A program made the position numbers and the translations under genes. A stretch of DNA of 64,000 bases, taken from NCBI GenBank assembly GCA_963971425.1, contig OZ020518.1:31502770-31566769 (forward strand). The letters run 5' to 3'. Every line of letters begins with the position of its first letter. The first letter of the stretch is position 1. Under the pieces are notes generated by a model. It was not told the origin of the DNA. It ran no database searches and was given only the letters and a program-made list of their open reading frames with translations. This document shows, piece after piece, positions 910 through 35,917 of this stretch. Source of the stretch: Bryoerythrophyllum caledonicum. Lineage: Eukaryota; Streptophyta; Bryopsida; Pottiales; Pottiaceae.

Positions 910-3645
910 ATGGATTGTATCATCGATCAACACAAAAATATTCTAACTAGCCCAGAAGACATCGCGAATGAAATATTCAACCAACAAACAAAAAGCAATA
1001 GACCGACAATACCAACATGTAATTACCAACCACAACATCCAATTGAATGCACATGTGCAGTACGCCAATACCCATGGCATGACCTTGATGGATTTACCCT
1101 TGACAAACGAGGTGAACCAGAAATCCCACTACACAAATACTTTAACATAGCCACATACGACACATGCCTTTGGAATCTTGGTAACAACAAAGCCCCTGGC
1201 CCAGATCGCATACCAAACTCAATACTCAAAAACATGCCCCCAAGATTCCATAAATTATTATTCCTATTCTTCTCTCATTGCTATAAACAAAAACAAATAC
1301 CAACGTCATGGAAATCAAGCACAACAATTCTACTATACCAAAAAAGAGATCCATCTATACTATCTAACCACAGGCCAATTGCACTAGCTAACACAATATA
1401 TAAACTCTTCACTAGTACACTCACCTCTATACTATCCTCATACGGTGAAAAATTTAGAATCCTACACGATAGTCAAGAAGGATTTAGAGCAGAAAGAAGT
1501 ACCGCTAGACAAATACAAACTATAGTAGCCGCACTAGAAGACGCAAGATTCACAAACAAAGATATATACATACTATACGTTGACTTTTTAAATGCCTTTG
1601 GCTCAATAGATCATGCCCGACTACTAGCAATAATGACGGACCTTGGTTACCCAAAAGATACAACTACACTTGTTGGAAACATTTACTCTCAATCTTCCAC
1701 TTGCTATATCAGAGAACACTTCGGGAAAACAAAACCTATACCCATCCAAAGGGGAACTATTCAAGGAGATACCCTCAGCCCATACCTATTCATTATATTT
1801 TTAGAACCACTACTCAGATGGCTAGAACGAGGCAACAATGGATACACTTTTGGCACATCACAAGTCACAATAAACGCTGCCGCATACGCGGATGACCTCG
1901 CCGCCATATCTAACAAAATTAAATCCATCCAAATACAACTCAATAAAATTGATAGATATTGCAAATGGACCGGAATGGACATAGGTGTCCCAAAATGTGC
2001 CACTACCGGATGCCCAAACAAATCCAAACTAAACCCTACCACTTTCAAAGCCCTAATGCAAACTTCCAACATCAATTACCGCAATCAACCGATCCCTATA
2101 CTACACCAAAATGAACCATACATATACTTAGGTACAAATCTTGTTCCATCACTAAAATGGAAAATCCAAATCCACGCTACAACAACGAAACTCATCAAAC
2201 AATGCAAAGAACTAACAACATGTCCGGCCACCATGAAACAAAAAATAAAAATGATTGACACCGTAATACGTCCAGGCGTGGCATACAATTTCTACGGTGT
2301 ACCATATTCTATGCCTGCTATCAAAAAACTTGATAAGAAAATAATAGCCATACAAAAAATCATATGTGGACTACCAAAATGTATGTCAAATGCAGTCACC
2401 CAACTCCCACATAACCTATTTGGGCTCGAAGCTTTCTCCCTCAAAAACGCATATCTCCGATGTATAGGTGAACAACTCCAAAATGCCTTAAACGATAAAG
2501 GTAGACTTGGAAAAATATATAATGGACTAACTCATTATGTCCTCGCCCAATATGGAGGAGCCGAAAACATACCCAGAATTAAAAAAAGTGGTTGCATAAG
2601 ATCACCAATAACACGAACATTCTTCTTATCAAAACACATAGCTAAAATCCACCTTAAAAGTACACTCCCAAACTTTCTCATTAATCCCACATCACTAGAA
2701 ATGTCATGGCGACAAGAAACATTAAATCACAACACACTCAATACCCATCTCTCCCAAAAACTCCTACAAAAACTCCTCTCAAAAAATATCTTTGAACTAA
2801 GCCAAATCACTTTACCTAACGGCACACACATCATGAACAATGAGGATTTCAAAACCTACCACTTCACCCCATCCAAATTACTAAAAAGTGCTCTAAACAT
2901 TGCTAAACAACTATTTTGCCACCCAACATGCCCCACCACATGTCATACCCCTTGCAACATACACCCATACTTCTATTTACTCCAAGATTCATTCATCACC
3001 ACCAACAACACCATCACTCCAAGGAACATCACCCCACTAGTCTACCCCCCTATCCCCCCACATCCACAACACCCTCGCCTCCCAACATACATCCCCAAAA
3101 GCCCTACCACATACCCCATTAATAACATCATACACCATAAACACATCCAACACACAGACACAAATAATATACAAAATACCTACACAAAATATCTATGCCA
3201 ATGGCAACACAATGATAATACATACAATAAATGGCTTCCCCAAAGAGCCCTCTTTCCACGACACGACACCAACACCTCCACACACAACATCGAAAAATTA
3301 AAACAATACTACCAAAAAACTCAAAACAAAATCTACTCGGGTATCATTCTAGCTCACCACCCACACGAACAATCCCCAGACTCAAGATCTGTAACACCAC
3401 CCATAATTATTCCACTCTTAAAAATTTATACATCAGAATGTAACCCCGAAAATGATATCATTGCATTCTCAAATACAATTAAAATGGATAACACTCAAGC
3501 ACATCTATACGAAGAAAATGGCCGACATTTACACACTATCCCCGTCACTCGACTCCAATGGTTATGGAATCAATACAATACAAAACTACAAACCCCTACA
3601 AACATTGAACCAGTGACCCAACCCTTTGAAACCGAACTAATCTAG
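910..3645 (+). CDS. LINE reverse transcriptase (ORF2 middle part)
   Basis: 911-codon open frame. Reverse transcriptase blocks are clear: NNKAPGPDRIPNSIL (block 0/1), YKLFTSTLTSIL, QEGFRAERSTA, YVDFLNAFGSIDH (first catalytic Asp), QRGTIQGDTLSP, and AAYADDLA with the YADD active site at 1885-1896. The thumb follows (YLGTNLVPSLKWK). The last 300 residues are Pro/His/Asn-rich and AC-biased and hold a Cys/His cluster (CHPTCPTTCHTPC, about residues 671-683). The first ATG is probably not the real start because ORF2 should be fused to the endonuclease upstream. It ends at TAG 3643-3645, and the next segment lies in another frame. It is the best preserved part of the element. Confidence 0.85.
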   Translation: MDCIIDQHKNILTSPEDIANEIFNQQTKSNRPTIPTCNYQPQHPIECTCAVRQYPWHDLDGFTLDKRGEPEIPLHKYFNIATYDTCLWNLGNNKAPGPDRIPNSILKNMPPRFHKLLFLFFSHCYKQKQIPTSWKSSTTILLYQKRDPSILSNHRPIALANTIYKLFTSTLTSILSSYGEKFRILHDSQEGFRAERSTARQIQTIVAALEDARFTNKDIYILYVDFLNAFGSIDHARLLAIMTDLGYPKDTTTLVGNIYSQSSTCYIREHFGKTKPIPIQRGTIQGDTLSPYLFIIFLEPLLRWLERGNNGYTFGTSQVTINAAAYADDLAAISNKIKSIQIQLNKIDRYCKWTGMDIGVPKCATTGCPNKSKLNPTTFKALMQTSNINYRNQPIPILHQNEPYIYLGTNLVPSLKWKIQIHATTTKLIKQCKELTTCPATMKQKIKMIDTVIRPGVAYNFYGVPYSMPAIKKLDKKIIAIQKIICGLPKCMSNAVTQLPHNLFGLEAFSLKNAYLRCIGEQLQNALNDKGRLGKIYNGLTHYVLAQYGGAENIPRIKKSGCIRSPITRTFFLSKHIAKIHLKSTLPNFLINPTSLEMSWRQETLNHNTLNTHLSQKLLQKLLSKNIFELSQITLPNGTHIMNNEDFKTYHFTPSKLLKSALNIAKQLFCHPTCPTTCHTPCNIHPYFYLLQDSFITTNNTITPRNITPLVYPPIPPHPQHPRLPTYIPKSPTTYPINNIIHHKHIQHTDTNNIQNTYTKYLCQWQHNDNTYNKWLPQRALFPRHDTNTSTHNIEKLKQYYQKTQNKIYSGIILAHHPHEQSPDSRSVTPPIIIPLLKIYTSECNPENDIIAFSNTIKMDNTQAHLYEENGRHLHTIPVTRLQWLWNQYNTKLQTPTNIEPVTQPFETELI

Positions 3646-3679
3646 CTTTACCAACGGTATAAATACCGAATACCAAAAA

Positions 3680-4390
3680 ATGGCCCCCCTCAAAAACGCG
3701 CAATACACAATACCCACACCCATCTTAGACTCACTAATCTCATCCTTTAACATCGAACAATCATACTTTTCTTCCCCGGTCACATGTTCTACTAAGCTAA
3801 AAAAATTTTACTCACCATTTGAAAGAGACAAAATATTCAAGTCCCTAGGAAAAGCCTTTGACTACAAATGGGCCGGTAAGGGGATAGCTCACCCCCACAA
3901 CGAGAAGGAAATGGAACAAGCAATACATTGGGCTAGACTTGCCGCCAAACATGATCCAAATAACACAAGTACAATCATCATCACACCAAACAACAAGTGG
4001 TACCAAAACAACAACCAACACTCAGACCCATTTCCAGATTCCCATATCATTGCAATATTCGAGGCAGACTCAATACCATACAAAGAACCTACTATTCCAC
4101 CCGAGCTAAAAAAACCCCGAATCGAGCCATCTACATTACAAATACTATGTGTCCATCATCAAAATCAAACCCTTGGCTCCCTAGAACAACTTGCGGAACT
4201 TACCTCCATAACAGACAATTTAAACATACAAAGACTATATACAAAACTGACCCCACCAACACCTATACAAACCCCCGTTAACCGAAGTAAAAAATGGTCA
4301 AAACTAAACTATGTTAACAATACACTAAACTACCATATCACACCGCCCCCCCCTCCCAAGCTATCCAAATCATACCACACCAAAATTTAA
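3680..4390 (+). pseudogene. LINE methyltransferase-like segment between RT and RNase H
   Basis: 236-codon frame lying between reverse transcriptase and RNase H. It contains FYSPFERDKIFKSLGKAF, then GIAHPHNEKEMEQAIHWARL and STIIITPNNKWYQN, and ends in a run of prolines. The order 'F-x-SPF-R-D...G-x-AF...HP...A-x-WA...P' weakly resembles the PCIF1-type adenine methyltransferase fold that I associate with some algal LINEs. The usual NPPF-type catalytic block would be AHPH here, so activity is unlikely. The frame ends at a TAA (4388-4390) just after a C-run (about 4346-4353), while the RNase H frame is open from 4329. A one-base slip in the C-run would fuse them. The family call is tentative. Confidence 0.4.
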
Positions 4391-5867
4391 CCCTGCACAT
4401 AGTTATTACACTGATGGCTCTTTTAAACCACCGAAACAAATTAGCCCAGGACCTTGGCGAAGAGAAAAAGCTGGCTATGGCATTTATAACTCTACCAAGG
4501 AAATCAAGCTTGCCAAAAGACTCCATGGACTACAAAATATACTTAGAACAAAACTCATGGCCATTCACAAAACACTACAAATTATCACAACAAAATACAA
4601 TAATGAACCCGCACATATATTCACCAATTGTATAAACGCACTTTACCTACTAAACACTCAAATAACACACCCTACTCTTCACAACAGTCACCCCGATCTA
4701 ACCATATTAATATCAATGGTCCGAATGTTACAAAAACAAACACAAATCACAACCCTCCACAAAGTGCAAGCCCGTGCCAATATTGATGGCAACGAAGAGG
4801 CAGATAAACTAGCAAAAGAAGGCCAAGAAAAAACACACAAAAATGCCAAAGACCCACACGAACATGCCCATGCTATCCCATACTACTTTCAAAAAGAAGA
4901 TTGGCCGTCCAAAGAAGATACCCCCGACAAAGGCCCAATCAGATTTTTGGACAAATACCTCAAAAAACAAGACCTCTACAACAACCTTGACACAATCTCA
5001 GAAAATATTCCTAACATAGAAAAATGGACCAACAATAACGACATAGACAATGAACTCTCTACAAATTTTTGGAAAAACCCCATCATTTCAGACTCACAAA
5101 TAACATGCCTCATCAAATTCCGTACTGGTCAATATATGGGAAACGCTCGCAAACAACTCTTCTTAGGAATAGAAAGATTCCCATCCATAACATGCCCCAT
5201 ATGCCCTTCAACGGACCCCGATACATGGCTTCATGTTCTACTCAAATGCCAAAATCACCACATACATTCCCTAATTGTTAAAAGACATAATAAAGCGGTA
5301 TGGGAAGTCCGAAAGCTAATCACCTCCTACAACAAATCAAGATGTTTTATATTAATGAACGCCGACACCTTTAATAATAATCCACAAGAAAATACGGTCC
5401 CTCCTTGGCTACTCCCATGCTCATGTGAGACTCAAAGATGTCATTGCAATGCTAGACTCAAACCAGACATTCTTTGTGTCAAAGGTTTACCATATAATGA
5501 CCCACCACCTGATCACATTAACCAAGACTACACTATTCAATTCATTGAATTCACATACTGCAACGACAAATTTTCCCCAGAAACCATTCAAAAAAAAATA
5601 GAAAAATACCAACCCCTCATTGAAGACATCATCGCCCTTGATTGGAATGTGGACCCCCTCATTGTAATCACGGCCGACGCTCGTGCCACCACCTTTATCC
5701 CATCTATGAAAACTCTAGAAGATGCTTTCAAAATACCCATTGAAACAATTAAAACCACCTTTAAAAACATTCACACCATAGCTATTCAACATGCCATGTC
5801 CATTCTTTTACATAAACGCAAAATCGAAAACAAGCAAGCCCTCCCCGATACACAAGACCCCCCTTAA
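4329..5867 (+). CDS. LINE RNase H, CCHC finger and restriction-like endonuclease
   Basis: Open for 512 codons from just after a TAA at 4326 (first ATG at 4557, inside RNase H). RNase H begins YYTDGSFKPP (first Asp at 4413-4415). Where active enzymes have Glu and the second Asp, this copy reads RTKLMAIHK (Lys) and IFTNCINAL (Asn). The late GNEEADKLAKEG block is kept. RNase H is therefore probably inactive. Then follow a CCHC finger (CPICPSTDPDTWLHVLLKC, 5193-5249), a Cys-rich patch (PCSCETQRCHCNARL), KPDIL at 5459 and IQFIEFTYC with Glu at 5547, which match the KPD...(D/E)-x-T pattern of restriction-like endonucleases in R2-type LINEs. The C-terminus is helical. It ends in TAA. Confidence 0.7.
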   Translation, partial: TTISHRPPLPSYPNHTTPKFNPAHSYYTDGSFKPPKQISPGPWRREKAGYGIYNSTKEIKLAKRLHGLQNILRTKLMAIHKTLQIITTKYNNEPAHIFTNCINALYLLNTQITHPTLHNSHPDLTILISMVRMLQKQTQITTLHKVQARANIDGNEEADKLAKEGQEKTHKNAKDPHEHAHAIPYYFQKEDWPSKEDTPDKGPIRFLDKYLKKQDLYNNLDTISENIPNIEKWTNNNDIDNELSTNFWKNPIISDSQITCLIKFRTGQYMGNARKQLFLGIERFPSITCPICPSTDPDTWLHVLLKCQNHHIHSLIVKRHNKAVWEVRKLITSYNKSRCFILMNADTFNNNPQENTVPPWLLPCSCETQRCHCNARLKPDILCVKGLPYNDPPPDHINQDYTIQFIEFTYCNDKFSPETIQKKIEKYQPLIEDIIALDWNVDPLIVITADARATTFIPSMKTLEDAFKIPIETIKTTFKNIHTIAIQHAMSILLHKRKIENKQALPDTQDPP

Positions 5868-6157: not shown

Positions 6158-9100
6158 AAAAATGTAGTAGAGGCGCTTGCAATTTATCCATTGCCTTCAC
6201 TTTCCTAAAGCTTTGCCCGACGTCTCTATAAAAAATGGGCTAGAACAATTGGGAAATTGACCAATTGTAATAAAGTACTGTGAAGTTTTGATGTAATCTT
6301 AGACTCAAAAGTAACTATGCAACCGATAGCAAGAGCGGGTACCATAGACACTTTCAAAATCCGACCTATGACTGAGAGGGTGGATATGCAGCTGTTGACG
6401 TGTTTTATGGAAGGTGCCTTTGGATTCCGTCTGATGTTATTCCCAAATTTGCACTTAGGATAGTCACCGGGAAACTCAAGCATAGCATATTCCGACAGGT
6501 CCTCCAACAAATTGTCTTTTCTGAAGAGCTTCTTGGAAGATAACTCCACACAAGGTGCTAATTGAAAACCGACGTTCTCCAAAGCAATAATTTCCTTCAT
6601 TGAAAGAATAGTTCCAATATTAACAAGCCTAGCCAAATCTTAGGTAGTGGTGGGTTGGAAACAACCCACTTCCACCTTGTACCTTTCACGTAACGTTCAA
6701 TGCCATCATTGCATTTTTTTTGAGCTTAATCTTCTTGTAGTTGTCCATCATTCTAGTATAAGTTGGGGTGGGAGTGTTTGTGCCATCTTGTACAATCTTC
6801 GTCACACATTTATTCTTAGTGGTGGCATTTTTTGCAAAACAAGCCTTTGCAGAGGATTTTGAAAGTCTCGCAATGTGCCACTCTTGTTTATTGCATGACG
6901 TCTCTTGGATAGCCTTCGCATGTTAGAATCTTGGAATAGTGGTTGGTGTCGTGAAATGTGATGGGTTGTTGTTTTCATTAATCTGTTGTTTGCAGTCGTC
7001 ATCTAAAGAGAGATCATAGACGCAAAGACCAGTTGATCGAGTCTGCACTCAAAGACGGGAGATGCTTAAATTCGGACATGTGAGAATCAAATTTGGATCC
7101 AGGAAGAAGGTTAGCCTTGCGCTTTAGGAAAAGAAAGACTTCCTCACCTTCTAGATGGGGCTTACGAGTGCAAAAAATTCTTTAGCTCTTGGCATATTGG
7201 CAAGTGCTTGGTGAAGTAATTTGGAATTTCCAGAACGTTGGACGGATTGTTGTGTAATTCGTAGTAAGAGTTCTTTTTTAGGACCGGTGCCAGCTCTCTC
7301 CCCATTCAAATATTGGTAGTATGCTACCACTTGCATAAAAACACGGACGTAATCATCATCAATAGTTGCCACGTGGAGGTCATTACCTTGTTTTCCACAC
7401 TGTTGCAGCCACTTGTTGTGGATAGACTCTACTAGATTGCAAGAGGGAATTTGGCAAGCTCAGTCTCTGAGAGAGCCTATGACATCACATACAAAAAATC
7501 AAAAAAATCAACATAGATGTACCACATAACAAATATAGAATTATAGAAAAGATTGGACCAAATTATGAACATACTAGTTTCATGAATCCACCCCATTGGC
7601 GATAGCGAAAGTGCCAAAAAGCAAGCCATAGATTAAGACAAACAATTCCTTCGTCAGCTGTAGCTCCTGAGGATTGCCACCAAGACCTAATAGCTAGATA
7701 TCGTGTTTCAGCCTTTAATAATGTTTTGGCATTCTTGTATTGTTTGCAGAGCTGTCGATGTTGATCTTGAAGGTCTAGCCAAATATCACCCTTTGAATGT
7801 TTTTCCAATGACTAGGTCCAATGGATCAAGCAAGTGCATTTTTTGTACTTCATAGGAACAGACGCATCACTGCTATTATACATGATACAAACGGCATTCC
7901 AATTCGCTTGTGCACTATTCGCCATAATGCCCTTAAATTGTGCCTATGAGAGATCCTACCTAGCAAGAACAACATTCAAGTTTTTTCAAAAGACAATCTG
8001 AGCAGCAACATCTTTGGACTGCATGTCGCACACTGCAATGGTCATAACACAACAATATATGGCATTGTATACATGGCAAGCCATTGTAGTCCAGCCCTTC
8101 ACACATTTCACATGGTCAAACATCAACCAAACATTCTGCAAATCTTCTCTAGGCTGCATTCGTTTTACTAAATATACTTCGCTACCAGGTCCAATCTTAG
8201 ACATTTTGAAGATAAAGACCTTATTGCAGTGAGATCCTTGGCCAAGAAACTTATTCTCCTACACAAAAGCCCAATTACTAGAATCCCTTAGTTTAGTGAT
8301 GCTGTCCATGACTCCAAAGCGGCGTAAATAGCAGAATGTGGTAATCTCATTGCAAATACTAGGAGAAGACGTGTGCTTGAATTTGTCAAACACCGGCACC
8401 AACTCATCAAGCGCTAGTGGCTTTTGAGGTGCTCCGTGTGGACAAAGAAGCAATTCACTAAGAAACTCATTGCTTGCTTCAAGCATGATGGCGGAATTAG
8501 TCGATGTAGGTGTACTCTTCACTTGCTCTAAAATGAGGTTCTTCATCTTCTTTGTAGAGTCTGGGTAATTGCCTATCTTCACCGGATGACCATGCAAACC
8601 CATATGCACACATGCACGAGTCATGTGTCTACGACGAACTACATAATAAATCTTAGCCATACAAACATCTAAGCAATAAGGAGGATTCTTACAGACTTTG
8701 CAGACAATGATGGAGCCTTTAGGAGGTTCAAACCTACTTCAAATGTGAAAGAGGAGACACCTTCTCATTCTGTTTTATTTGCTGTTGATATTTGGTGTAC
8801 CCGCAATAGAAAATCACAATCAAGATTTACACATTGTAAATGGCCCAAACAAGATGACATTCTGAAAGTAAGACCCATGTCATTCTTAATGTTGCTTGTA
8901 ATAGTCCGAGTCCAAGCGTGACTGTCATGGCGTTTGTCCATGCCGTGAAGGAGCTTTGCTTGGGACTATGATAGGTTCTTTCCAATAGGGGGGAACTCAA
9001 AGATGACATCACCGTTAAAACTAGGAGGGAGGAAGTTCACCTTCTCTAATTTTTACTTTGTTAAAATCTACCTTTGATAGCATAGACTTGGACCCTTTTC

Positions 9101-9705
9101 TAACACTTATTCTCTTAAGACAATCTATTATGCTAACAATATCACACACAGGAGGGAAGAGGAGGCCTAGAAGTAGAGGGGCGACTATCCTCTAAAGAAT
9201 GCGAAATTGAAGATCGAGGTCAACTAGAAAGATATGTGAATTTTGAAATATTGGAAGAGGGTAATCAATTTGGGCACTCATCCTCAGAGTCTTCACTTAA
9301 GAGATTAATCGTATTTTCAAAAGGATCGATCTTAACTCTAGACAACAAGGGCGTCTGTTGTGTAGAAGTGGCGGACATTCTAGGCGTACGAATCTTAGTA
9401 GACGCGCCTTGCGGACTATCACTCAATCCATACACTCGGTATGTGCCAAGCTTTACAATCCATACTACACCATCATTAATAATTGTGGGTATCTGAGCAA
9501 TAGTATGAGTGAGATTTCTAGTGCATGGATCAAACAATTCTTCATCAATATGCATAGACCCCTCATGAAATAAGAATCTAAGACGTAAACAAAGAGTACT
9601 AATAGTACAATAGCCCTCATCATCTACAGTAAATGAAATGGGAACACCTTGTCCATCACCCGGAATTGCTACCATACGCAAAGTGGAAGCATGGATATCA
9701 GCCAC
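6158..9705 (-). pseudogene. MULE-like transposase with SWIM zinc finger, decayed and cut by the LINE
   Basis: A single ancestral ORF read from 9705 down to 6158 through stops and frameshifts. N-terminus MADIHASTLRMVAIPGD; an N-terminal Cys/His region (DSHAWTRTITSNIKNDMGL, SCLGHLQCVNLDCDFL, CKVCKNPPYC); a middle block (CYLRRFGVMDSITKLRDSSN, WLMFDHVKCVKGWTTMACHV); the probable DDE region FKGIMANSAQANWNAVCIMY; then LWLAFWHFRYRQWGGFM and NLVESIHNKWLQQCGKQGND; and a last block about 6160-6640 (WARLVN-like, FRKDNLLEDLSEYAMLEFPG) ending in WINCKRLYYIF, the end of a SWIM finger. Defects: TAG inside HWT*SLEKH, Asn where I expect the catalytic Asp (MANSAQ), and several frameshifts. The C-terminus beyond SWIM is missing because the LINE abuts it. 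MULE class is inferred from the transposase-SWIM order. Confidence 0.65.
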
Positions 9706-13110: not shown

Positions 13111-14671
13111 TCCTCCAGGTGGGTTTTTTCCTTTCTCTTGCCAATGCTCAATGCACTTTCATTGTAATGTCCTCACAAACAACTTTAAGATCTTGACATC
13201 TCTAGTGACCCTGCAATTTCTCCTGCTGTTATTGATGCTTCAAAAGTTTGTATCACTTCTCTTGGCTATTTATCATATGTTTTATTTTAAATATTGATTT
13301 TGATGTATTATAATTTTTTAGTAAGGACATAATATAGAACATAATTCATTGTTGTTTTTTCGAAAAGGATTTGGGCAATTTAACCATGGATGATGACGTT
13401 GCTGATTCTACTGAATTTAATTGTCTACCTCGGCTTCAGAACTCAAATGAAGGACAACGTGCAATGAGACCATCACAAATCAAATTTTGTATTAGTTCTT
13501 GACAACATGCGGGTGACAAAAAACCATTTCTATGTTCCCTTGTGCAGAATGATTCCACTTCCACGAGTTTGACCGGTCTAGGAGGTGGATGTGAAGACCC
13601 AAGAGAAGAGGTTTGAAGGGGATGAAGCTATTTTGCGTGCCCAGAGCAGTGAGCGGTGAGCGGTGAGCGGTGAGCCTAGAGCGGTAAAGTTGGGGTTTTT
13701 ATGGGAAAACAAAGTCATAAAGTTGACAATGAAGCAAGTGGAAAAGTAAATAAAATAGAGCCAAACTTGACGGTAGAGGGCCTATCACCGTGGGTCCCAT
13801 AAAATTTAAACAATTATTGGGTATTCCATTCCATATATGGTGGTACTTTCTGAAAAGGGAACATTTGATAAGTTTATGGAGGGATGTTGGAACCCTATGG
13901 CCGTGGATTACTGGAACACCCTTAAATTAGGGAAGTTGTATTAAACCAAGGTAAGTGTTCATTTATTTACTATACCAATGTCAACTGAAAATTTATGCCT
14001 AATTATATTGCATGATATAAGAGAATTGTAATTAAAAAAATACCTAAATTTTGCAGAAGATTAGAAGAAGGCTCAGTACTTTAGGATACACATAAGAATG
14101 ATTAAAGTGAGCGTGTTTACATAGTAGAACATGTGGAATTGAGAGGTTGGAGAGTTCATGTAGGAAGAGAATAGAGCAATGACTTAATTTAGTGAATTAT
14201 AGGTCAAATAATAAGCCACATACTCAATTTTGCAATGACATTATGTATACAAAGTAAAGTTGGTGTCACAGTGAGGAAATAATCTTTATGGATAGCGTGG
14301 ATAATTATGCTACTAAATAGTGACAAAATCAAATGTCACTATTATGAAGGGATTTTTTAACTGCCATCACGAGAGCGAATAAAGAAACTTAAGAAGACGC
14401 AAGTTCAAGATATAGGGATGACCAAATGAATGAAGGTTTAAGAGAATCATGTAATAGCGTAAAGATACTTGAGCTATCTCATTAAACACGCAGCCAAGAA
14501 GGAAAGCATGGAATCTGGTTGTAGGTGGCAACAAATGAAAACAAACTTTTCATACTCATATAATGACAACAGAATGGGGAAAAGAAAAAGAAGAAACGGT
14601 CGTTAACATAGGGGGGTTCCTTTGAAACGCGAGAGACAAGGAAGAAGAACAAGTCAAAACAAAACGTTTGC
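13111..14671. other. AT-rich stretch downstream of the methyltransferase gene; short GAGCGGT repeat
   Basis: No ORF worth calling. A simple 7-bp repeat (GAGCGGT, about three and a half copies) sits at 13651-13675. The part just below 14672 is the downstream flank of the minus-strand gene and would hold its 3' UTR. I could not pick out a poly(A) signal with confidence. Confidence 0.5.
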
Positions 14672-17600
14672 TCACGTTGATGCAAAAGAACTGGATGCCG
14701 AAGAGGAGGGTAAGACATGTAATTCTACGTTAGCTTCTACATCTAGATAACAAACCACACATGGATCATATTGTTGATTGCGGGTATGATGGCGAGGAGA
14801 CAAAGTAGATGCCACTATGTCAGCAACATGTCCGGCCCAAGGTGGCAGCAGAAAATCCCTGGGTGGAGAAACCGCCCTGGCAATCAAACTACAGAAAGCA
14901 TAGGATAATTAGGTAATAAAATCATGGAGTTCTTCACAATAATTGGCAGAGAGTTGCAAACAAATAAAAGTTGAACTTACGTACTCAATCTATTACGTTT
15001 CACGATTTTCCGGATAGGGCTGTATTCATCCGGGAGAGTTGCCACTCCACGCGACTCAGTTCGGTTGGAATGACCCAATAATGGCGATGAAAGGGCCTTC
15101 AACTTCTCGTTGAAGATGGTTGTGTCGCTTTCCAAAGCAATGATATGTCGACCGCACATCTGGCATGCAAGCACAGAATTGCTTGCAAAGGAAATTCACA
15201 ATATTAGAATAACTTTACGTGTCAAGCTAGCAAATGATAGAAACGCATCTTGAACGACTGCGCCAGGCTGTGATAACGCCTCGATCAACATCTGGAAAAA
15301 GGAAGCATCCTTCTCACAAGGTCCCCTCCATGGAATGACTCCTCGCATGGATTGAGACTCCGCCGTGGTGAAATTGAAAAGAACATCGGATTCTTCCACG
15401 CCCATTCCCACCTAAGAGAGGGATTCGTTCTTATTGACTGTAAACTTGGCACCATTCATGTTCTCACGAACAAAAAATAAGACACAGAACCTGCGAGACT
15501 ATGAAGGCACAACAAGTCAAATTCCTTACCGATGTTGTTAGAATGAGAATTGAGGTTGAAATCAACAAATGAACCAAAAGGAATGTTGGGTAAAAGACAA
15601 GAAATCCAACCTTTAGCGATGGGAAAATGTGCGAAGTCAATGGTAGGTCGTTAATTGCCCACCATTCTCTGAAAACCTTGAAACCGTATCCGCCAGCATA
15701 CGACAATTCATCAGACCGGATAGAGGGGACCTCGGGCACGAAGATCAGTATGCCTCCCATATCATGAAGGAAGTAGTCCGCAAACTCAAATAAGCTTTCC
15801 AGGCCCGCAATCAAATATTCATTCCATGAAGGAATGTCCAACGCATGCTTGGAGATGGATGGGACCGACATTCCGTCAGGAATGTCACCCAAGATCAAAT
15901 CGAACCTACTGTGAAGACAATGAGTGGACCGTCTTGAACTGGAAGCCTCCTTCCGTGCCTGGAAAACTAGAAGTCGGTAATTTTATTTCGAAACAAAGGT
16001 GATAGTTATTAAATACAATGTGAATAATAAGTAATTGTGACAAATTTGATTAAATCATATACTGTATGATTGAATCAACAATGAGAAAATAATAGCAATG
16101 AAGTGCAAAACTTTCTAAACCAAAGTTATGCTGAAAATTTCAAATTACCTGGAGGACGAACGAATTGATTTTAAGTAGAGTCGCATGCTCTGCAGGAAAG
16201 GACTCCATGATCATGGAGATCGATGAGTTGTCCACGAAGACTGTCGCAGGGAGAGGTGGAGAGGTTCTACCAACATTAACCTTCTCGATGAGCATCTTAG
16301 AGCACTGGGAAAGAGGACTCGAGGCGCTCGAAGCTTCTGGAAGAGGTCGCTTTGATCTCCTAGTAAATCGCAGCGGTGCCACCAAGGACTCCGAATCCAA
16401 CATCTCAATGTCATCAACATCGGCACTTGATACCGATGGGATCAGTTGAGCTTGTTGAATAGCTAGTTCCGCCTTCGCGGCGGCCAATGCCTTCGCAACT
16501 GCCGATGCTGCAGCATCCGACTCTGCCTTGATCTTGGCGGAGGCCTCTGACTCCGCCTTTGCTTTCGCAATGGCCTCGGCATCAGCAGCAACCTTCTGCT
16601 TCGAGACACGAGTCTTCTTAGCGCCAACCTCTATAGAGACTGACGGAACTGACAATTCTCTACCCAGAAGATCCGGCTGGACACTATTTCGGAGTTCGAT
16701 ATCAAATGAAGGTGGCCTCTTCACCGGACAATCCAAATACCACCCGCAACGCTCCCAATGCTCCCGGCCGCACGTCTTCGTGATATTTTTAGTGAACATA
16801 AACATATTACTAGTCTTCTCCAAGTAATTAGAGAAGGATGGTGGAGTCCTAGTGATTGCCTTCCTTGGGAAAAGGATGTACATGAAGTACCTATAGAGAG
16901 TGCGGTTAATGGCATGCTTGAGTCCCACTTGCTTCTCCACCAGGTTATTCTTGTGAACGCCTTTCCCCTTGAATTCATTCTGAAAGGCGATATCCCACAA
17001 CTGCACGCGCATCTGTTCAATGTATTCGGATATTGTGGGAATGGGCATACCATTCTCAGTAATGTACTCAATAGAAACCCCCATGTCAGACATGATCCCA
17101 TGAAATAGCATTTCGGTCTCCCCTGAAAGCTGCAAATATGAAGGAAACGGTATTCATAAATACAAGCAGTATGTAATGTGGCACCAAAAGAGATATTCGA
17201 ATACCATATAGAAGAAAATCACAACATTGTATTGCATTAAGTGATAGGAAACAATATACTTGAGACCACCATGTTGCCTTGTGAAGCCATTCTGGAAAAT
17301 CATGGTCAGGAAACTTCGTCCTGGAAAATCGAACTTGCTCACGCAAAAAAGGGGGCTTGTTTCACCGCTCCAACCATTTCACCTTCATGCTTGGGACCAT
17401 AGCAGAGGTGGCGAGGTAATACAGCTTCTCCTGAGACATCTCTGGATCATCTTCACGGTTCTCATAGTGAATACGAACTTGCGATAAGAACTCAGAAGTG
17501 TGTTTCGGGTCCGCAATCGGCAATTGCTTCTTGAGCTCCGAGCTAAGGTGCACCTTTACTTTCTCAACTCGATCTGTAACGAATTCGTGAATGGCAGCAG

Positions 17601-20600
17601 AAGTCCAAGATGACTCATCAGGGAACTTTTCCTTGAATTTCCTATTGACATGAGCAACTGCATCACCAAGCTCTTGTTGCAGAGGCAAAAGCAGAAAACA
17701 ATTATCATCATATCCAACTGATTTCACAGGACAAAGTCGATGAAAAGAGGTTTTGAAAATAGTACAGTCTAATAAATACAGGATTTTAAAATAGTTTTGA
17801 AAATTCAATTTATGAAAACAGTTTAAGAACTAGAAGCACTGTCCTAGATACGTTGAAAAGTCTTTGAATACAGTCACAGTCCTAGGAACGCATTACAACC
17901 TTTCCTTCTTCAGTTTAAGAAAAAAATGAAATTCAGTTTCTGAAATATAGTCTTTTAAATTAAATTTTCAAAAACAGTCTTTGGAGGTGAGTGTTTGACC
18001 CTACAAACATATTTAGAAAACAGCCTTCAAACTTTATATTATGAAAACATCAAACAAAAAACAATGTATGAAAACAGTTTTTGAGAACGCATAACAACCT
18101 AAAAAACTCAATGTTTGAAAGTAGTCTTTGGTATAAAGTTTTTAGACCAAAAATTTTGTTTTGAAAACAACCGTAAATTTTAATTTCTGTAAACACTGAA
18201 TGAAATACAGATTTCCAAAAAAATTCAAAAAATGCATCACAGTCCTAGAAAATTAAATTCTGGATTGTAGTCTTCATAATAATGTTCAAGGGTAAAGAAA
18301 CATGAATCTTAAACAGCCTCAAAATATTCAGTTATGGAAAACAGCAAAGTATAGTCTTTAGAATTTAGTTTTAAATTAAAGTCACCCAAGAAAAAACGAA
18401 ACGAATCACATAAATTCACTTGTTGACCCCCTTTTTGTCAATGATCCTCTCTAATAAAATAGTTCAGAGATGACTTCATGAATACAGTGTGAACAAAGAA
18501 GCCAAATCTTGAATTGATCGTGAATTTATCATTGATCGTAAAGACATGTCATGAAATTTCAAAACTACAGATTATTTGATACTCATACAATGGCCTATGA
18601 CTTCAAATTTTGGCCTTGAAATCACAATTATTGGATATTGAATCAAACGTATATTTTGCAATGATTTCAATTCATAAGATGTCTGTGTTTAGTGAGAATG
18701 TAGTTACAAATTCGAGCACGATACACTTGACAGAATTGTAAGGGGGAATTGAGTTAATTTTTTAGCACATAAATTAATTGATGTAAAGAATCCAGCAAAG
18801 CACAAAGATAAAAAATTCTAGGCACGAGATAATTTAGAGTAATTTGAGAATACGAATTGACAAGTCGAGCACACAATAATAAATATTAAATCACCAACTT
18901 CAATGCATCCAAAAATACTTCTCAATTAATCTCTTGGTAATGAAACTGATATTCTGACGATTCATTATCTAATACCGCCAATTTGATCTCGTGGAGTTGA
19001 GATAGCTATCCAGAAGAGAATTCTATCAGGTACTTAAAACGCTTAAGTGAAAAAACTTAAGCATCGTGAGCTAAACTGTGTGTACATGAAAGTGTATCAA
19101 TTAGGATGCCTCGTGTCTGCGAGAGAATCAAGTGAAATGAAATAGGGAGTACAAGTACCTGATAGAGAATTGCGATCAGAGACTTGAAAGTCAAGGTGTA
19201 CCATGTTCTGTCTTTGGACCTCTGCTTTGCCTTGGCTGCCACAATTTTGTCCTTGCCCAGGAGCGACTCGAAATACACAAGGAGCTGCCCGACAATACCT
19301 TGAATGCGATATAACTTGTGGACCAGATTTGTTGTCACATGTGATTTTTGGTTTCTCTTGATAGAACAAATCATTTAGTCATACTCGAAGCTCATAATCA
19401 AGGTAGACATTCAACTCATTCAAGAAATAAATGAATGTATTATCAGAAAGTCATCATGAAGTCATACTAGAAGTCATGCTATAACTTCATCATAAAGTCA
19501 CACTAGAAATCATACTGCTTAATAAATGAAAGTATTATCAGAAACAAAAAACATACCAATTCACTTGGTGAAGAGCTGGAAGCAGAGGAGCAACTTGACC
19601 GTCCACATTGAGGATGATCGATTCCACAAAGTAGTGCCAGTTGATGTCATTCGAATGATCTATGTTGATAACCAACAGGCAAGCTTGTAATCTATGGTTC
19701 CCATCCCAGACGTAAAACATCATTCCAGAAAGGGGCTTCAAATCTTCATCACTCTGCAACTCAATCTCAAAATGCTCGTTTGTGCTAGTCCAAAGTGGAC
19801 TCCAGGAACTGGAAATTGCCTCAGACACTAGTACAGTCTTACCTTTGTTGTTCTCCAAAGCCACGTAAAACACACCGTGGCCTTCCATATACCCTATGCT
19901 AACAAAATAAGCACCTAGTCCCATCACATCATTCTTCAAATAAGGTCGGACAACCGGTACGGAAATCATTCTACAAAGTGGTATATTCAACTTTGATTTG
20001 GCCTTAGGTTTAAAACGGAGTCTTTCCAAAACCAGGTTCGTATTTACAGACTCCTTCATGACTAATTCATCCATCTCCTTCCCAAGCTCGTCAGCTGTCA
20101 TTGGCGTCCCCTTATCCTCAATGCCCTCCAAGTCAAGTACTTCCATCTCATCCATTGGAAGTTCTGAAAAATATCCAGTAAGACTCATTAGAAATAAATT
20201 AAAACGTTAAATTGAGTGAGGGAAACAATCAAACTTATAACAATACCTTCAGTCTCGACTCCGAGACGAGGGAAGCCAGTCTCCTCATTGATGGGACCAT
20301 CTGATAACTTCTCTGAAAGAAAAATGACAATGTAAACATTATCAAAAAAGTTCTAAACAATACCATCATTCATTGTGTCTAACAATCCTTAAACACACAA
20401 GCCTACGGGGGGTGCCGACAACGGCCCCTCCCCGGAGGAGACGGTGTCCCTTGGGGCAGCACCACCTCCGGGGAGGTGTCGCTATGGACACCCCCTCGGT
20501 GCCGGCCCTCTCATGAAAAAGAGAGTCGACACCGAGGGGGTGCCAACAGCGGCACCTCCTCGGAGGTGATGCAGCTCAACCGAGCAGCGCCACCTCCGGG

Positions 20601-21088
20601 GAGGTGTTGCTGCCGACACCCCCTTGGTACTGGCCCTCTCACAAAAAAGAGAGTCGGCGCCGAGGGGGTGCCGACAGTGGCACCTCCTCGGAGATGATGC
20701 AGCTCAACCGAGCAGCGCCACCTCCGGGGAGGTGTCGCTGCCGACACCCCCTCGGTGCCGGCCCTCTCACGAATGAAGGCAACTATTCACAATTACATAA
20801 ATGCAAGGTAATTTATGTAGCAAGGCCCTTACCCGACATTCTTAGTCCTCTCTGGTCGTTCAGTGCTTTCGTGACGTATCCGTCGTCACTGGCATCCGTT
20901 GCGACAACAAAATTATGGTAGTAATCAATATCGGAAAACGCTACTCCATTCTTTTGTGAAGACTACCTAATCTAACACCACTTTTCACTCTCTTTCCACT
21001 TACCTGCCATTTGTTGCTCGACGTTGCGAAACGCAGTTTCCTCGCCTTGCGTTGCACTTTCACTTCCCGAATTTTCCAGAAGTACCAT
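14672..21088 (-). CDS. ParB-like domain fused to permuted DNA N6/N4-methyltransferase-like domain, 11 exons
   Basis: Spliced by hand. Exons (high to low): 21088-21004, 20940-20833, 20312-20247, 20163-19565, 19356-19159, 17670-17260, 17129-16149, 15958-15611, 15411-15214, 15159-14981, 14888-14672. Nearly all junctions are GT-AG and in phase. The total is 3390 nt (1130 codons), ending in TGA. ATG at 21088 opens MVLLENSGSESATQ. Domains: ParB/sulfiredoxin-like fold about 140-260 (FYVWDGNHRLQA, DGNHR at 240-244); helical middle; Ala/Lys/Glu-rich coiled coil about 660-715 inside exon 7; methyltransferase about 835-1060 with motif IV-like DIPD (841-844) before the SAM-binding blocks, the permuted beta-class order. 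Phage and bacterial ParB-methyltransferase fusions are known. One in-frame TGA (codon 455, 17364-17362) and degenerate catalytic motifs suggest a pseudogene or non-catalytic protein. The exon 9/10 join is the least certain. Confidence 0.7.
14981..15958 (-). other. Exons 8-10: permuted methyltransferase-like domain
   Basis: Exon 8 (15958-15611) reads FDLILGDIPDG, then LFEFADYFLHDMGGILIFVP, which parallels motif IV and the following strand-helix of N6/N4 DNA methyltransferases. Exon 9 reads ALSQPGAVVQDAFLSFAS, parallel to the PG-x-V-x-D-x-F-x-G-x-G SAM block but with both Gly lost. Exon 10 reads MCGRHIIALESDTTIFNEKL, parallel to the GR-x-x-I-G-I-E-x-D block. Motif IV is DIPD rather than DPPY. 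Order IV then I marks the beta (permuted) class. Spacing to the family suggests that a few residues upstream of CAG/ATG (ACQ) may also be exonic. Confidence 0.6.
17671..19158 (-). other. Intron 5 (1488 bp), AT-rich with recurring GAAAACAG phrases
   Basis: Bounded by donor CAG/GTACTTG at 19159 and an AG acceptor above 17670. Between 17740 and 18400 the phrase 'tttgaaaacagtc' and close variants recur many times, a degenerate short repeat. No ORF or mobile element recognised. Confidence 0.5.
19565..20163 (-). other. Exon 4: ParB/sulfiredoxin-like domain
   Basis: Acceptor TTTTTCAG just above 20163 and donor GTGAAT just below 19565, both in phase with the neighbours. Carries ISVPVVRPYLKNDVMGLGAY and, at 19705-19691, DGNHR inside FYVWDGNHRLQA. 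The G-x-H-R-x-x-A signature is the nucleotide-binding motif of the ParB/Srx fold, which in bacteria binds CTP or ATP. An alternative donor (GTATGT at 19556) exists but would not keep phase with exon 5. Confidence 0.65.
20404..20770. repeat. Three GC-rich snap-back (quasi-palindromic) repeats inside intron 2
   Basis: Units of about 125 bp: one partial (20404-20513) and two full (20521-20641, 20650-20770). Each begins GAGAGTCGGCGCCGAGGGGG, continues GTGCCGACAGTGGCACCTCC, and ends with the near reverse complement (GGAGGTGTCGCTGCCGACAC, then CCCCTCGGTGCCGGCCCTCTC-like sequence), so each can fold into a long hairpin. Much richer in GC than the flanks. It lies in an intron of the ParB-methyltransferase gene. 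Confidence 0.75.
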
Positions 21089-22104: not shown

Positions 22105-23023
22105 ACAGCTTGATGGTGTGCATTCCACGTGGATTTTATCACAATATTGGAATGAAAGAAATGGATGGATTTTATCACAATATTGGAATGAAAGAAATCC
22201 ATATGTGAATGTGTTTGGCTTATCGGAGGCATTGTCATCATTACCTAGTTCAATTCGTAGGGAAAATACTACAAAACTTACTTCTTTCCAAATGATTGGT
22301 AGATTAAAAATACTTTGTATTCTCCAAACATGAGGTAAACCACATCAGTTCTAATTAGTGCATTATTATGCGTTTTGATATGATTTTGAATTTTCTATTT
22401 CTTGGAAACAATATTGTTTACAATTCCCTTCCTGAATATTTCCTCATGGAAAGTCTCATGGTGTTGTATGATGCAAAGCGCACCTTTGATTCTGATGTGG
22501 GCATGCGTACAAGCTTCTTGTATAGTTTTGGTTGAATCGGACTCATGTTTCACAGAAACTCTAGCGTCAGTTGAAGTGAGCTCTGTAAATTCAAGCTACA
22601 ACTAAGGTAAACCCCCCATAGCCGACAAGTTAGGAATGTGCATATATGGAGAGAACAAATAATAACACATTCACTTTTTTAGTGATACCCAATAGAATTA
22701 CAATTTCAACCCAAGTGATTTTATATTTTTCCAATGAAATGTGAAGTAGTTATGAATTTTCAAAGTGTACTCCTATGTTTAGCTGGTGGCTGCCAATAGG
22801 TACCCCCCATAAGCTAATCAAAACTAAGGGGTCTTGCCTAATGGCCAACCTTCATTTGGAGCTGAATGGGTGATATTGAGATGGAAGTGGGTTGGATATA
22901 GGGTTAATTTTATAAATATTGGTTATGGATTTTGGTTGATTGCCATAGGGTTACCTTATCTCATTTCATGAAATGTATCCCTTGTTTGCTAGCCACTTTG
23001 AGAATGAAGAATTTTTTTAACAA
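22105..23023 (+). repeat. Copy A of a dispersed repeat also present at the palindrome edges
   Basis: Matches, with scattered differences, the reverse complement of about 57920-58812, and its last ~410 bp (22613-23023) match 29383-29789. Homology starts at 'agcttgatggtgtgc' and stops after 'tttttttaacaag'. Copy A carries a 32-bp tandem duplication near 22131-22195 (GGATTTTATCACAATATTGG repeated) not seen in the right-hand copy. A coding-like frame near 22415 (SLPEYFLMESLMVLYDAKRT) hints at a decayed transposon ORF, family not recognised. Confidence 0.7.
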
Positions 23024-23201
23024 GTCTAGAACTACACAGAGAATCATTGAGAACTACAACGACTAACAACAAGTCTAGAACTGTACAAGATCAAGTATAC
23101 CACAATAAATACATTAAAAGATAGAGAATAAAGGTTTAGATCAGAAAGCGTGGGTATTAACTACATCAATTACCCCGCTCTTCGTACGCGTGTTGTACCC
23201 A

Positions 23202-29382: not shown

Positions 29383-29789
29383 ACCCCCCATAGCCAACAA
29401 GTTAGGAATGTGCATATATGGAGAGAACAAATAATAACACATTCACTTTTTCAGTGATACCCAATTTCAACCCAAGTGATTTTATATTTTTCCAATGAAA
29501 TGTGAAGTAGTTATGAATTTTCAAAGTGTACTCCTATGTTTAGCTGGTGGCTGCCAATAGGTACCCCCCATAAGCTGATCAAAACTAAGGGGTCTTGCCT
29601 AATGGCCAACCTTCATTTGGAGCTGAATGGGTGATATTGAGATGGAAGTGGGTTGGATATAGGGTTAATTTTATAAATATTGGTTATGAATTTTGGTTGA
29701 TTGCCATAGGGTTACCTTATCTCATTTCGTGAAATGTGTCCCTTGTTTGCTAGCCACTTTGAGAATGAAGAATATTTTTTTTAACAAGA
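29383..29789 (+). repeat. Copy B of the dispersed repeat, at the left palindrome edge
   Basis: Direct repeat of 22613-23023 with several substitutions and lacking 11 bp (agaattacaat) present in copy A and in the right arm. Inward of the indel it matches the right arm almost exactly, and outward it diverges, so the edge of the palindrome falls inside this repeat. Confidence 0.75.
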
Positions 29790-29991
29790 GTACGAACTTG
29801 TGATAGACACCTCTATTTCCATCTTTTCTTTATCTTCATCATCAATGCAAATGCTTAGAAAGAAAGCAACACATTCAAGAAATGAGGTACAAGTGTGTCC
29901 CTTCCAATCTTCCTTTAAGTGGAAAATTGCTAATCTAATTATAACATGGAGTTTCATTGCTTTCTTGTAGCTTGCATGGGATGGGCTATCG

Positions 29992-30378
29992 GTGCGATGG
30001 AGTTGCAGATTGTCTACTCAATCTGCAACAACATCCACCACTCCACCATCTGAAAGTCCGACATTTTCAAATGCTCCAGATGTACTTTTCGAGCACCCAA
30101 CACCTCTTCCTATGCCGCCAGTTTTTGTCAGTGACAATTCTCACTATAATGAAACTCAATGTATTGGCCATTTTGATGAGAAGTATTTTGATAGCGAAGA
30201 AGTCAAAGAGGAAGGAAGGGCTCCAAGCTGTGAAGATTTGGAAGATGATGAGTTTGATGAAGGTCCATATTCTAACCTTGAATTGAGGTCTGTAGAGGAT
30301 TTATGGTGGCCGCTAGAGCTCCGACAATATTCCTCAAAAACAAAGCGGGACAAGTACTCCAACGGCTCTAATGGCTAG
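29992..30378 (+). CDS. Acidic ORF of unknown function, likely transposon N-terminus
   Basis: 128 codons: Ser/Thr/Pro-rich start (TTPPSESPTFSNAPDVLF) then an acidic run (DEKYFDSEEVKEEGRAPSCE, DLEDDEFDEGPY). No known domain. It lies just upstream of the piggyBac-like remnant in the same orientation, and acidic low-complexity N-termini are usual in piggyBac-type transposases, so it may be part of that gene. Present identically in the other arm. Confidence 0.35.
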   Translation: MRWSCRLSTQSATTSTTPPSESPTFSNAPDVLFEHPTPLPMPPVFVSDNSHYNETQCIGHFDEKYFDSEEVKEEGRAPSCEDLEDDEFDEGPYSNLELRSVEDLWWPLELRQYSSKTKRDKYSNGSNG

Positions 30379-30594
30379 GGATGGCAGAGAGCAATATGAA
30401 GCTATTGGGAGCGGCGGAGAACAAGGAGAAGCTTCCGGGAGTGGGGGAAGCAACTAAGAGCTTTAGGAAGTGGTGGGAGCTTTGGGAGCATTTGGAAGCA
30501 ACAAATACATCGAGAACAATGGGGTTCTCTTCAAGGTGAACATTTTCTAGACTTGGTTGGAGGGGCTTGTTTTCTAGAGACGGCCTCGACAAGG

Positions 30595-31050
30595 GACTAT
30601 GGATTTTATGAAGAAATTGAGGTGGGGCATGATGGAGTGGGGACGACTTTGAAACCTCAGTATACCTTGGGTCCTAGAAGCGTTCGTGGTCGGAGACTTC
30701 ATACTTTAGCTCAACATTGATAAAGGGCTCATATTGAGTCTTCGTCCACACATAATGATAGTAGAAACGAGTTAGAAATTGAGGATGGAGATGAAGTTTC
30801 TGAGGATGAAATTATTGGCAATATCAATAATATCAAGTATGCACATCGTGACAACACTTGGACTCAAAGTTTTTATACATATATCCTCGAGTTCCAAGAA
30901 TTTGTAGTGATTTCAAGGGCAAATGTTTATTGGCGTTATTTTCCAACGATGAAGAATCCATTTGAAGATTTTTGGCCAATGTGAATTTTTCAAGACTTTG
31001 TTTCAAAGACTAATTGTTGTTCGGTGGCAAAGATTACGGTGTCGTGATGT
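30595..31050 (+). pseudogene. piggyBac-like transposase N-terminal remnant
   Basis: One frame from 30595 reads DYGFYEEIEVGHDGVGTTLK, an acidic part (NELEIEDGDEVSEDEIIGNI), then YFPTMKNPFEDFWPM, stop, IFQDFVSKTN. The 'NPFE-x-F...F...V-x-x-TN' order matches the start of the piggyBac DDE domain. In-frame stops near 30720 (TGA TAA) and at 30979 (TGA) kill it, and the catalytic part is absent because the sequence ends before CopA. Family call tentative. Confidence 0.35.
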
Positions 31051-31267
31051 GGGCCGTCTTGTGGATATACTTAATTAAATACTTGTGATTAATATTAGTG
31101 AAGGCGTGGTTGATATGTGATTTATGTTTAGGTTGTGTTTAATTTATGTTTAGTTTATAGTGTGGTTAATGTTTGGTTTGTGTTGATGTTGCGGTTGAGA
31201 ATCAGTTTGAATTTTCATTAGCTGGTTGATAAGTGGTTGAGAAAAGATTTTTTGATAGGGATTTAAT

Positions 31268-31466
31268 TGTTTGTACAAATAATAGTTACGTCAATGTAGA
31301 ATAGACACACCTCTTATAGTTACCAATTGACACACCTCTTCTAGAGATCTACAGACACCAGTAGTAGCTCTTTACTTCATTTAAAATGGTTGTATGTTGC
31401 GTTGTATCATTATTATTATGAATATAACTTCTTACTCTTTCACCTTCACCTTAAGGTGTTAGTTCA
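31268..31466 (+). repeat. CopA 5' LTR (left arm)
   Basis: Starts TGTTTGTACAAATAATAG and ends TTAGTTCA. 199 bp, the same length as the 3' LTR. Contains a TATTATTATGAATATAA stretch that could serve as promoter or poly(A) region. Confidence 0.88.
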
Positions 31467-31470
31467 TGCA

Positions 31471-31483
31471 TGGTATCAGAGCA
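31471..31483 (+). promoter_or_regulatory. CopA primer-binding site for initiator tRNA-Met
   Basis: TGGTATCAGAGCA, complementary to the 3' end of plant initiator tRNA-Met, 4 bp after the LTR. Confidence 0.9.
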
Positions 31484-31559
31484 AGTTTTTTTTTAAGCTT
31501 GTAGGATCTCTCATGAGTTCCTTTTGATCATAAGCTCAATACTAGCTTACTTGAAGAGC

Positions 31560-32400
31560 AGGCTTGAATTTCTTTAAATTCAACTATAGCCTCATCCTCT
31601 TCGAGCTCAGCTTCACGAGCTTATCATATCCCTCCTCTCAGTGCTAGCAATTATGCTACCTGGAGTATTGAAATTGAAATGTTATTAATACGTTCCGAAT
31701 TATGGAGCGTGGTCGACGGAAGTGAAGCCAAGCCTGCAGCCAGTGATACTGTCAGTCTCCAAGCCTGGACGCTGAAAGATGCAAAGGCTCGTTCTGACAT
31801 CTTCCTTCACTGTGGAGAAAAAAAATTGATTTCTCTTCGCCCTCTTGCCACTTCTAAGGAAGTATGGGATCGGGTTATACAACTCTATGAGAAATCTAAT
31901 AAAGCTTCCCAGGTTCACTTGCACAAACAGTTATGCCACATGACTATGTCAGAATCCGACGATGTGATTGCCTTCCTAGAATTATGGCAGGCAACACTCC
32001 TAGAGGCTGCTACTTCTGGGTGCATATTCACTGACTCTCAACAAGTAAATCTTCTTCTTGGTGCCTTACCTGAATCGTGGAGCGCATTTATTACAACACA
32101 AGGTGGCATCAGCAACCTGACCTTTACAAATTTGTTGTCAAACATCCTGCAACAAAATTCCATCAATCAATCCAAAACAAATATATCCAAACTTGATATT
32201 TCCAAATCAAGTGTTTTTTATGTTAAAGGGAAATTTATAAAACTAGCTTCACTAAAATTCTCAAATCCCAGACGTTCATACAAACCCAACCTTTCCAGAT
32301 CTCAGCCATCATTCCAACGAAACTCGTTATCGACCACCCAACTCTTTACAAATAATATGCCACTACTGTGGCATCCGAGGGCATAAAGCCCCTGACTGTC
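31560..32400 (+). pseudogene. CopA gag (left arm)
   Basis: Capsid-type UBN2/gag protein. Reading starts upstream of the ATG at 31679 (SNYATWSIEIEMLLIRSELW is continuous with it). Contains the copia-gag pattern SKEVWDRVIQLYEKSNKAS, HKQLCHMTMSESDDVIAFLE, LLLGALPESWSAFI. The frame changes near 32340. The zinc knuckle CHYCGIRGHKAPDC (CX2CX4HX4C, about 32358-32399) is intact in the shifted frame. Makes the virus-like particle in active relatives. Confidence 0.8.
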
Positions 32401-32510
32401 AAAAGAAAAAGCGGGACCACGAAAGTAGTGGGAAACCTCATGTAATTACTTTTACTGCTGATGAACAATTTTATCTATTTTTAGCAATACCTGACACTCC
32501 AGCTGTTTCT

Positions 32511-35809: not shown

Positions 35810-35917
35810 TGCAAGGGGGAGTTCTTGTATATCTCAATTCATCAAAGCTGCTCATGGATGGAAACTATCTACGTCAACAAATCTTTTTAGCTTAACTGTT
35901 ATTTTCAGCTATGCAGC

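Follow-up and report, generated by a model that had tools for sequence, protein, structure and literature searches.

The moss Bryoerythrophyllum caledonicum carries, in a 64,000-nt stretch of its genome (assembly GCA_963971425.1, contig OZ020518.1, positions 31,502,770–31,566,769; hereafter "the window"), a copy of a spliced gene that joins a ParB-like domain to a methyltransferase (MTase)-like domain. This gene is almost certainly an accessory gene of a ~12.3-kb DNA transposon bounded by terminal inverted repeats (TIRs), and the carrier appears to be a Mutator-like TIR transposon in which the gene stands head-to-head with the transposase gene. The identity of the gene and of its protein is well supported. 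The window copy itself is dead and truncated, with two in-frame stops, one damaged splice junction and a transposase half that was not found.

The transposon carrier

Searches of the 437-Mb genome returned 1786 first-look candidates for exon 4, which encodes the ParB-like domain, and 1640 candidates for exon 8 of the MTase-like part, and in each case all of the 150 that were scored proved to be matches. Two elements, a (C4; L031 and L032) and b (C10; L033 and L034), are 99.3% identical across 12.28 kb with unmatched flanks, carry TIRs of ~62 bp that are 90% alike, and are flanked by the 10-bp target duplications GGCGGTCGAG and AAATTAATAA. Each contains a transposase gene divergent from the ParB–MTase gene, the latter encoding both domains in a single protein of ~1100 amino acids on the opposite strand. 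Fourteen transposase copies, 99–100% identical and free of stops, are spread over 10 contigs. Among the 59 transposase matches scored from 3273 candidates, 48 had a scored ParB exon as divergent partner, 2.5–7.8 kb away, and a scored ParB exon within 15 kb on the transposase's own strand was seen in none; for the 11 matches without a partner, partners may fall beyond the 150 scored ParB exons. The same divergent pair was found in a second subfamily (38–68% protein identity by exon, 67–68% for the transposase), whose outer 24 bp are identical at the single end read.

As defined in PMC6446971, Mutator-like elements (MULEs) are characterized by TIRs and target duplications of 8–11 bp, and both of the elements read at both ends have duplications of 10 bp beside their ~62-bp TIRs. 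No MULE profile in Pfam matched the transposase, and a SWIM finger (E 0.48) fell below the cut-off. Three transposase motifs common to the two subfamilies, FMADSAQ, CLFHW and LAE[TS]VHN, are ones that we take to be MULE-like. A bacterial toxin subunit in PDB matched the transposase twice, weakly (E 0.08 and 0.77), and both matches were put down to chance.

An earlier note on this DNA had seen neither that the gene belongs to a high-copy transposon nor the TIR at 13618–13682. Its passing suggestion of a mobile-element protein was right.

Separately, locus L040 holds a far more distant member of the family (31–1596, 30–35% identity) in opposite orientation to a normal copy that it adjoins, with DCQEN at the position of MTase motif IV. 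A family TIR (2305–2366, 90% identical to the element a TIR) lies between the two, hinting at nested or abutting insertions.

Gene model in the window

On the minus strand, ten exons between 21088 and 14981 and an eleventh at 14888–14672 join by GT–AG into one long frame. Exons 4–11 (20163 to 14672) match a recently mobile copy exon by exon at 69–85% identity, and in the window's subgroup, where the top 44 of 150 ParB-exon matches were set against the top 51 of 150 MTase-exon matches, 38 of the 44 loci have an MTase exon that shares the strand of the ParB exon and follows it at a distance of no more than 10 kb; the exon joins thus exceed chance. Exons 1–3 are placed by splice signals and phase alone. 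The earlier note had described an 11-exon GT–AG gene with only one in-frame stop. The long joined frame and exons 4–11, with their homologues, bear that model out in part, but the junction between exons 9 and 10 is damaged relative to an intact copy, and there are two stops, a TGA at 17364–17362 and a TAG at 15414–15412. The motifs that it listed (DGNHRLQA, DLILGDIPDG, QDAF and CGRHIIALESD) are all present, in the order claimed. The features of the locus are as follows.

13618–13682, no strand: TIR end of the element (downstream end, ParB–MTase half); aligns at 87.7% with the first 63 bp of element a, with an exact CTATTTTGCGTGCC at 13628
14672–14888, minus: exon 11, C-terminus with TGA stop; 69% match to reference exon e11
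14981–15159, minus: exon 10, end of motif I (CGRHIIALESD), damaged 5' junction; homologue alignment
15214–15498, minus: exon 9, motif X/I (PWRGPCEKD...QDAF), TAG at 15414–15412; homologue alignment, PF01555 match on the corresponding exons in other copies
15611–15958, minus: exon 8, motif IV position (DLILGDIPDG); family profile aligned to DPPY of E. coli YhdJ
16149–17129, minus: exon 7, containing an Ala/Lys/Glu-rich linker; homologue alignment
17260–17670, minus: exon 6, in-frame TGA at 17364–17362; homologue alignment
19159–19356, minus: exon 5; homologue alignment
19565–20163, minus: exon 4, predicted ParB/Srx-fold domain with DGNHRLQA; AlphaFold model with structural matches to ParB/Noc/KorB (scores below)
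20247–20312, minus: exon 3; GT–AG and phase only, no homologue confirmation
20407–20773, no strand: GC-rich palindrome array within the exon 2–exon 3 intron; TGCCG-N4-CGGCA occurs three times, each with one mismatch, at 20413, 20541 and 20669
20833–20940, minus: exon 2; GT–AG and phase only, no homologue confirmation
21004–21088, minus: exon 1 with ATG; splice signals and phase only, no homologue confirmation
6158–9705, minus: decayed gene for a transposase of this element family, in a separate neighbouring copy; eight pieces matched at 42–64% identity in tblastn, with both transposase frames of element a as queries

A search with the same transposase frames found no transposase-like sequence from 21088 to 64000. 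A Pfam search of six window frames gave no useful match, no Rfam family reached its gathering score in the window or in L031, and a tRNA search of the window found none.

Domains of the encoded protein

The exon 4 domain very probably adopts a ParB/Srx fold, as judged from structure prediction. Its AlphaFold model (predicted local distance difference test score, pLDDT, 89.9; predicted template modelling score, pTM, 0.80) has its best structural matches in ParB, Noc and KorB, and DGNHR..A is kept in 35 of the 39 copies with exon 4, with DGNQR in one more; we take DGxHR..A to be the signature of the ParB/Srx superfamily. Neither PF02195 nor PHROGs profiles assigned any of nine members to a ParB family, the ParB_N profile had no match in the host genome, and PDB sequence searches with family members returned no ParB entry; the assignment is thus one of structure and signature only. 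The ParB-like domain of the earlier note is upheld on these two grounds, though not by PF02195. The bacterial clamps ParB, Noc and KorB accordingly share with the modelled moss domain an N-terminal fold and the DGxHR signature, and the palindromic arrays described below would be candidate sites; unlike them, the moss protein has no Pfam or PDB sequence match to the clamp domain, is eukaryotic and spliced, and is fused to an MTase-like part.

Sequence comparison supports the C-terminal part as a homologue of permuted N6/N4 MTases, and profiles support a beta-type origin. In tests with spliced exons 8–10 of eight copies, PF01555 matched seven (best E 1.5e-7), the first member scoring 22.7 bits, below the curated 26.7. 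PDB sequence matches included DpnA (1e-6) and CcrM (9e-4) as well as MboIIA, an N4-cytosine MTase and RsrI (E 1e-6 to 0.2), all falling on the motif X–I part. An hhalign alignment to E. coli YhdJ (probability 88, E 3e-6, 205 columns) placed ADIPDG on ADPPYN, so that motif IV precedes motif I in the permuted order of the beta type. The N6/N4 MTase fold proposed in the earlier note is therefore sustained by profile, sequence and alignment matches. DpnA, CcrM and YhdJ likewise have motif IV ahead of motif I, and motifs X and I can be recognized in the moss proteins. The canonical catalytic motif IV is [DNS]PP[YFW], and here the moss proteins depart from these enzymes: PP[YFW] is absent from all 32 readable copies (of 33 with exon 8), 30 of which have D-x-x-[DE]-[GN] at this position, with the first D kept in 31. 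Although many of these 32 copies are closely related, the distant subfamilies that were read show the same. The domain is thus predicted, with good confidence, to be catalytically non-canonical, and the "modification gene" of the earlier note, sound as to MTase homology, is doubtful as to activity because no copy read has the canonical motif.

The tested exons (e4–e10) are under purifying selection, which the earlier note had proposed to examine. Median ratios of nonsynonymous to synonymous substitution (dN/dS, Nei–Gojobori) were computed over copies that were stop-free, more than 80% covered and non-identical, at a synonymous difference (pS) of 0.05–0.6; removing stop-bearing copies biases these ratios toward constraint, and some failing copies are loci cut by the end of a sequence stretch. 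Medians were 0.12 for e4 (28 of 39 copies passing, 16 distinct, 19 pairs), 0.08 for e5 (33 of 39, 21 distinct, 61 pairs), 0.17 for e7 (16 of 47, 13 distinct, 29 pairs), 0.15 for e8 (32 of 33, 29 distinct, 253 pairs), 0.23 for e9 (25 of 32, 22 distinct, 106 pairs) and 0.34 for e10 (24 of 30, 21 distinct, 91 pairs), while e6 (18 of 51 passing) yielded a single pair, at 0.09.

Palindrome arrays in non-coding parts of the elements

Because a GC-rich repeat occupies the window intron at 20407–20773, the non-coding parts of the elements were compared. These carry arrays of the palindrome TGCCG-N4-CGGCA, often in 64-bp units. The core was noticed by eye and then ranked against other bipartite palindromes over 27 loci (145.6 kb) in nine author-defined subfamily groups; out of 9216, it came first both by loci (21 of 27) and by groups (seven of nine, the next best reaching four). 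These loci hold 67 core sites against 0.06 expected from composition, 66 of them outside aligned coding sequence, and ~68 kb of control sequence outside elements holds none. The commonest spacing is 64 bp (14 of the 36 spacings under 300 bp). In element a, both genes have arrays in their non-coding parts, and the introns occupied differ between subfamilies; the sequence around the core varies among subfamilies, and its ten defined bases recur in the seven groups. Genome-wide, 4180 core sites were counted versus 164 for a reversed-pattern control, and the first 100 sites listed, all in C1, include at least seven clusters, four of which have a scored ParB or MTase exon no more than 10 kb away. 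The array in the window has one-mismatch versions of the core only. A plain scan for palindromes gave a less distinct picture than ranking by the core, with no excess over shuffles at several loci. GC-rich tandem repeats of another kind occur elsewhere in the window.

Proposed function and alternative readings

The best reading, to which we give an even chance, is that of a sequence-specific protein that would protect or regulate its own element, by a mechanism that we infer as follows. An arrayed, two-fold symmetric site suggests a dimeric binder, for which the ParB-like protein is the natural candidate, with the transposase as main alternative. Acting as a dimer, the ParB-like domain would recognize TGCCG-N4-CGGCA; we put the chance that the ParB–MTase protein binds the palindromes slightly short of even. 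It may load at the arrays and spread or recruit partners over the element, much as bacterial ParB does from parS, with the MTase-like part binding DNA or S-adenosylmethionine (SAM) in the absence of canonical methyl transfer. The net effect would be to maintain expression or mobility of the element, most likely by counteracting silencing by the host at the arrays, in the manner of VANC; anti-silencing, an analogy with that system, is put forward tentatively. In its fullest form, which we consider unlikely, the proposal would be a eukaryotic transposon counterpart of ParB–parS, whose ParB-fold protein loads, perhaps with cytidine triphosphate (CTP), at arrays in its own element and spreads to exclude silencing or organize transposition, a non-catalytic MTase-like domain serving to sense DNA or SAM.

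Several of the same observations could be read otherwise. Retention of motifs X and I, within exons under purifying selection, would also suit a protein whose ParB-like domain targets the element for N6-methyladenine (6mA) or N4-methylcytosine (4mC) marking by the MTase, altering how the host views the element, as suggested for the ParB–MTase protein of Ectocarpus (PMC12477816). The loss of PP[YFW] from every readable copy, distant subfamilies included, makes such self-marking quite improbable. Accessory proteins act with the transposase in other DNA transposons, and the divergent pairing kept across large divergence, together with arrays in non-coding parts of both element a genes, would be consistent with a factor for transposition or copy number that takes part in synapsis, repression or targeting, the arrays being regulatory or synaptic sites. 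This role seems rather unlikely, as the arrays are internal, variable in place and not at the termini read.

The arrays may instead be a mere GC-rich minisatellite expanding within the elements and unrelated to the protein, which would then do something else. Their tandem units with a preferred 64-bp spacing, their placement in different introns by subfamily, and the other GC-rich tandem repeats of the window all agree with this; we nevertheless lean clearly against it, given that the context of the core differs by subfamily yet the same ten bases recur in seven of nine groups, against four for the runner-up. Finally, an intron-rich gene with two prokaryote-type domains could be a host gene that descends from a modification gene captured from a prokaryote or virus and that acts in chromatin, which the earlier note had entertained. 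Mobile copies with TIRs and target duplications, the 1786 candidate loci of which all 150 scored match, and the broken state of the window copy largely refute this for the window locus and leave it a very remote prospect, while a domesticated copy may exist elsewhere in the genome. The idea of a captured host gene was dropped given the number of candidate loci and the near-identity of elements a and b, with their TIRs and target duplications.

Comparison with known systems

In Ectocarpus, the transposon Sola1-1_Ec32 is described as having a 1104-amino-acid ParB + MTase gene opposite its transposase, predicted to produce 4mC or 6mA, and the same account cites Iyer 2011 and Petroll et al. for relatives in green and red algae (PMC12477816). 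This kind of gene is thus already known, and the statement in the earlier note that no characterized nuclear version was known to its author needs correction. Both the moss and the Ectocarpus proteins, as far as the latter is described there, are of ~1100 amino acids, combine ParB-like and N4/N6 MTase parts, and are encoded on the strand opposite the transposase of a giant DNA transposon. Unlike that of Ectocarpus, where the transposase is of the Sola1 type, the moss carrier has 10-bp target duplications and a transposase read as Mutator-like; its motif IV differs from the catalytic type, and the passages describing the Ectocarpus element make no mention of palindrome arrays. Newly described here are the Mutator-like carrier, the absence of the catalytic motif and the arrays of the palindrome; among the titles listed in searches of open PMC papers, none reports any of these.

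VANC proteins of VANDAL transposons in Arabidopsis are described as binding motif arrays in non-coding regions and removing silencing (PMC10398659). As portrayed there, VANDALs resemble the moss elements: they are Mutator-type transposons that carry an accessory gene, and short motifs are tandemly repeated in their non-coding regions. Unlike VANC, the moss protein has predicted ParB/Srx and MTase-like folds, and its candidate core is common to different subfamilies, in contrast to the rapid divergence of VANC targets. Fungal transposons with TET/JBP dioxygenases, as presented in PMC12730594, likewise pair a DNA transposon with a gene thought to act on epigenetic marks, although the enzyme class is different.

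The earlier transposon ParB–MTase gene appears, in the relevant part of PMC12477816, as a brief remark with a suggested function. The present family is abundant, recently mobile and under purifying selection without the catalytic motif, and it has a candidate binding site in most subfamilies read. Two questions thereby become directly testable: can a DNA clamp of the ParB type function in a plant nucleus, and do transposons besides VANDALs possess their own sequence-specific anti-silencing systems?

Origin and distribution

Against a set of 5.8 billion proteins, the ParB-exon profile matched 208 at E ≤ 1 (best 5e-96), and among the 120 matches listed the one with an organism name is from the moss Ceratodon purpureus. 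Full-length searches of this set returned none at E ≤ 1 (8000 candidates) and none at E ≤ 0.001 (7432 candidates). A tree built from 111 ParB exons places element a, and likewise L038, nearer to a metagenome protein than to the other host copies that it includes; the subfamilies are thus not confined to one genome or sample. Two scans of viral contigs gave no confirmed relative, and the direct viral source that the earlier note had allowed for was not found there. The Ceratodon homologue (P0062) has a UG locus tag, on a 112-Mb contig; we take this tag to indicate, probably, the female sex chromosome.

Other features of the window and genome

An 11.5-kb inverted repeat (29383–40913 and 46797–58338), 99.8% identical between arms, has its left arm ending at a 200-base N gap (40914–41113) and is perhaps an assembly duplication at that gap; we take its sequence to be that of a Copia-type retroelement. 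On the plus strand, 580–5867 has long open frames with reverse-transcriptase (YADD) and RNase H-like (YTDGS) motifs, from which we assume an element like the long interspersed nuclear elements. Repeats at 22162–23033, 29383–29798 and 57912–58787, 94.6–97.8% identical and situated around retroelements, resemble long terminal repeats. In the genome as a whole, 58 matches to the chlorophyll a/b-binding family were found, as befits a photosynthetic host, and eleven of them cover only profile positions 31/32–161; these eleven are presumably early light-induced proteins, as in desiccation-tolerant mosses.

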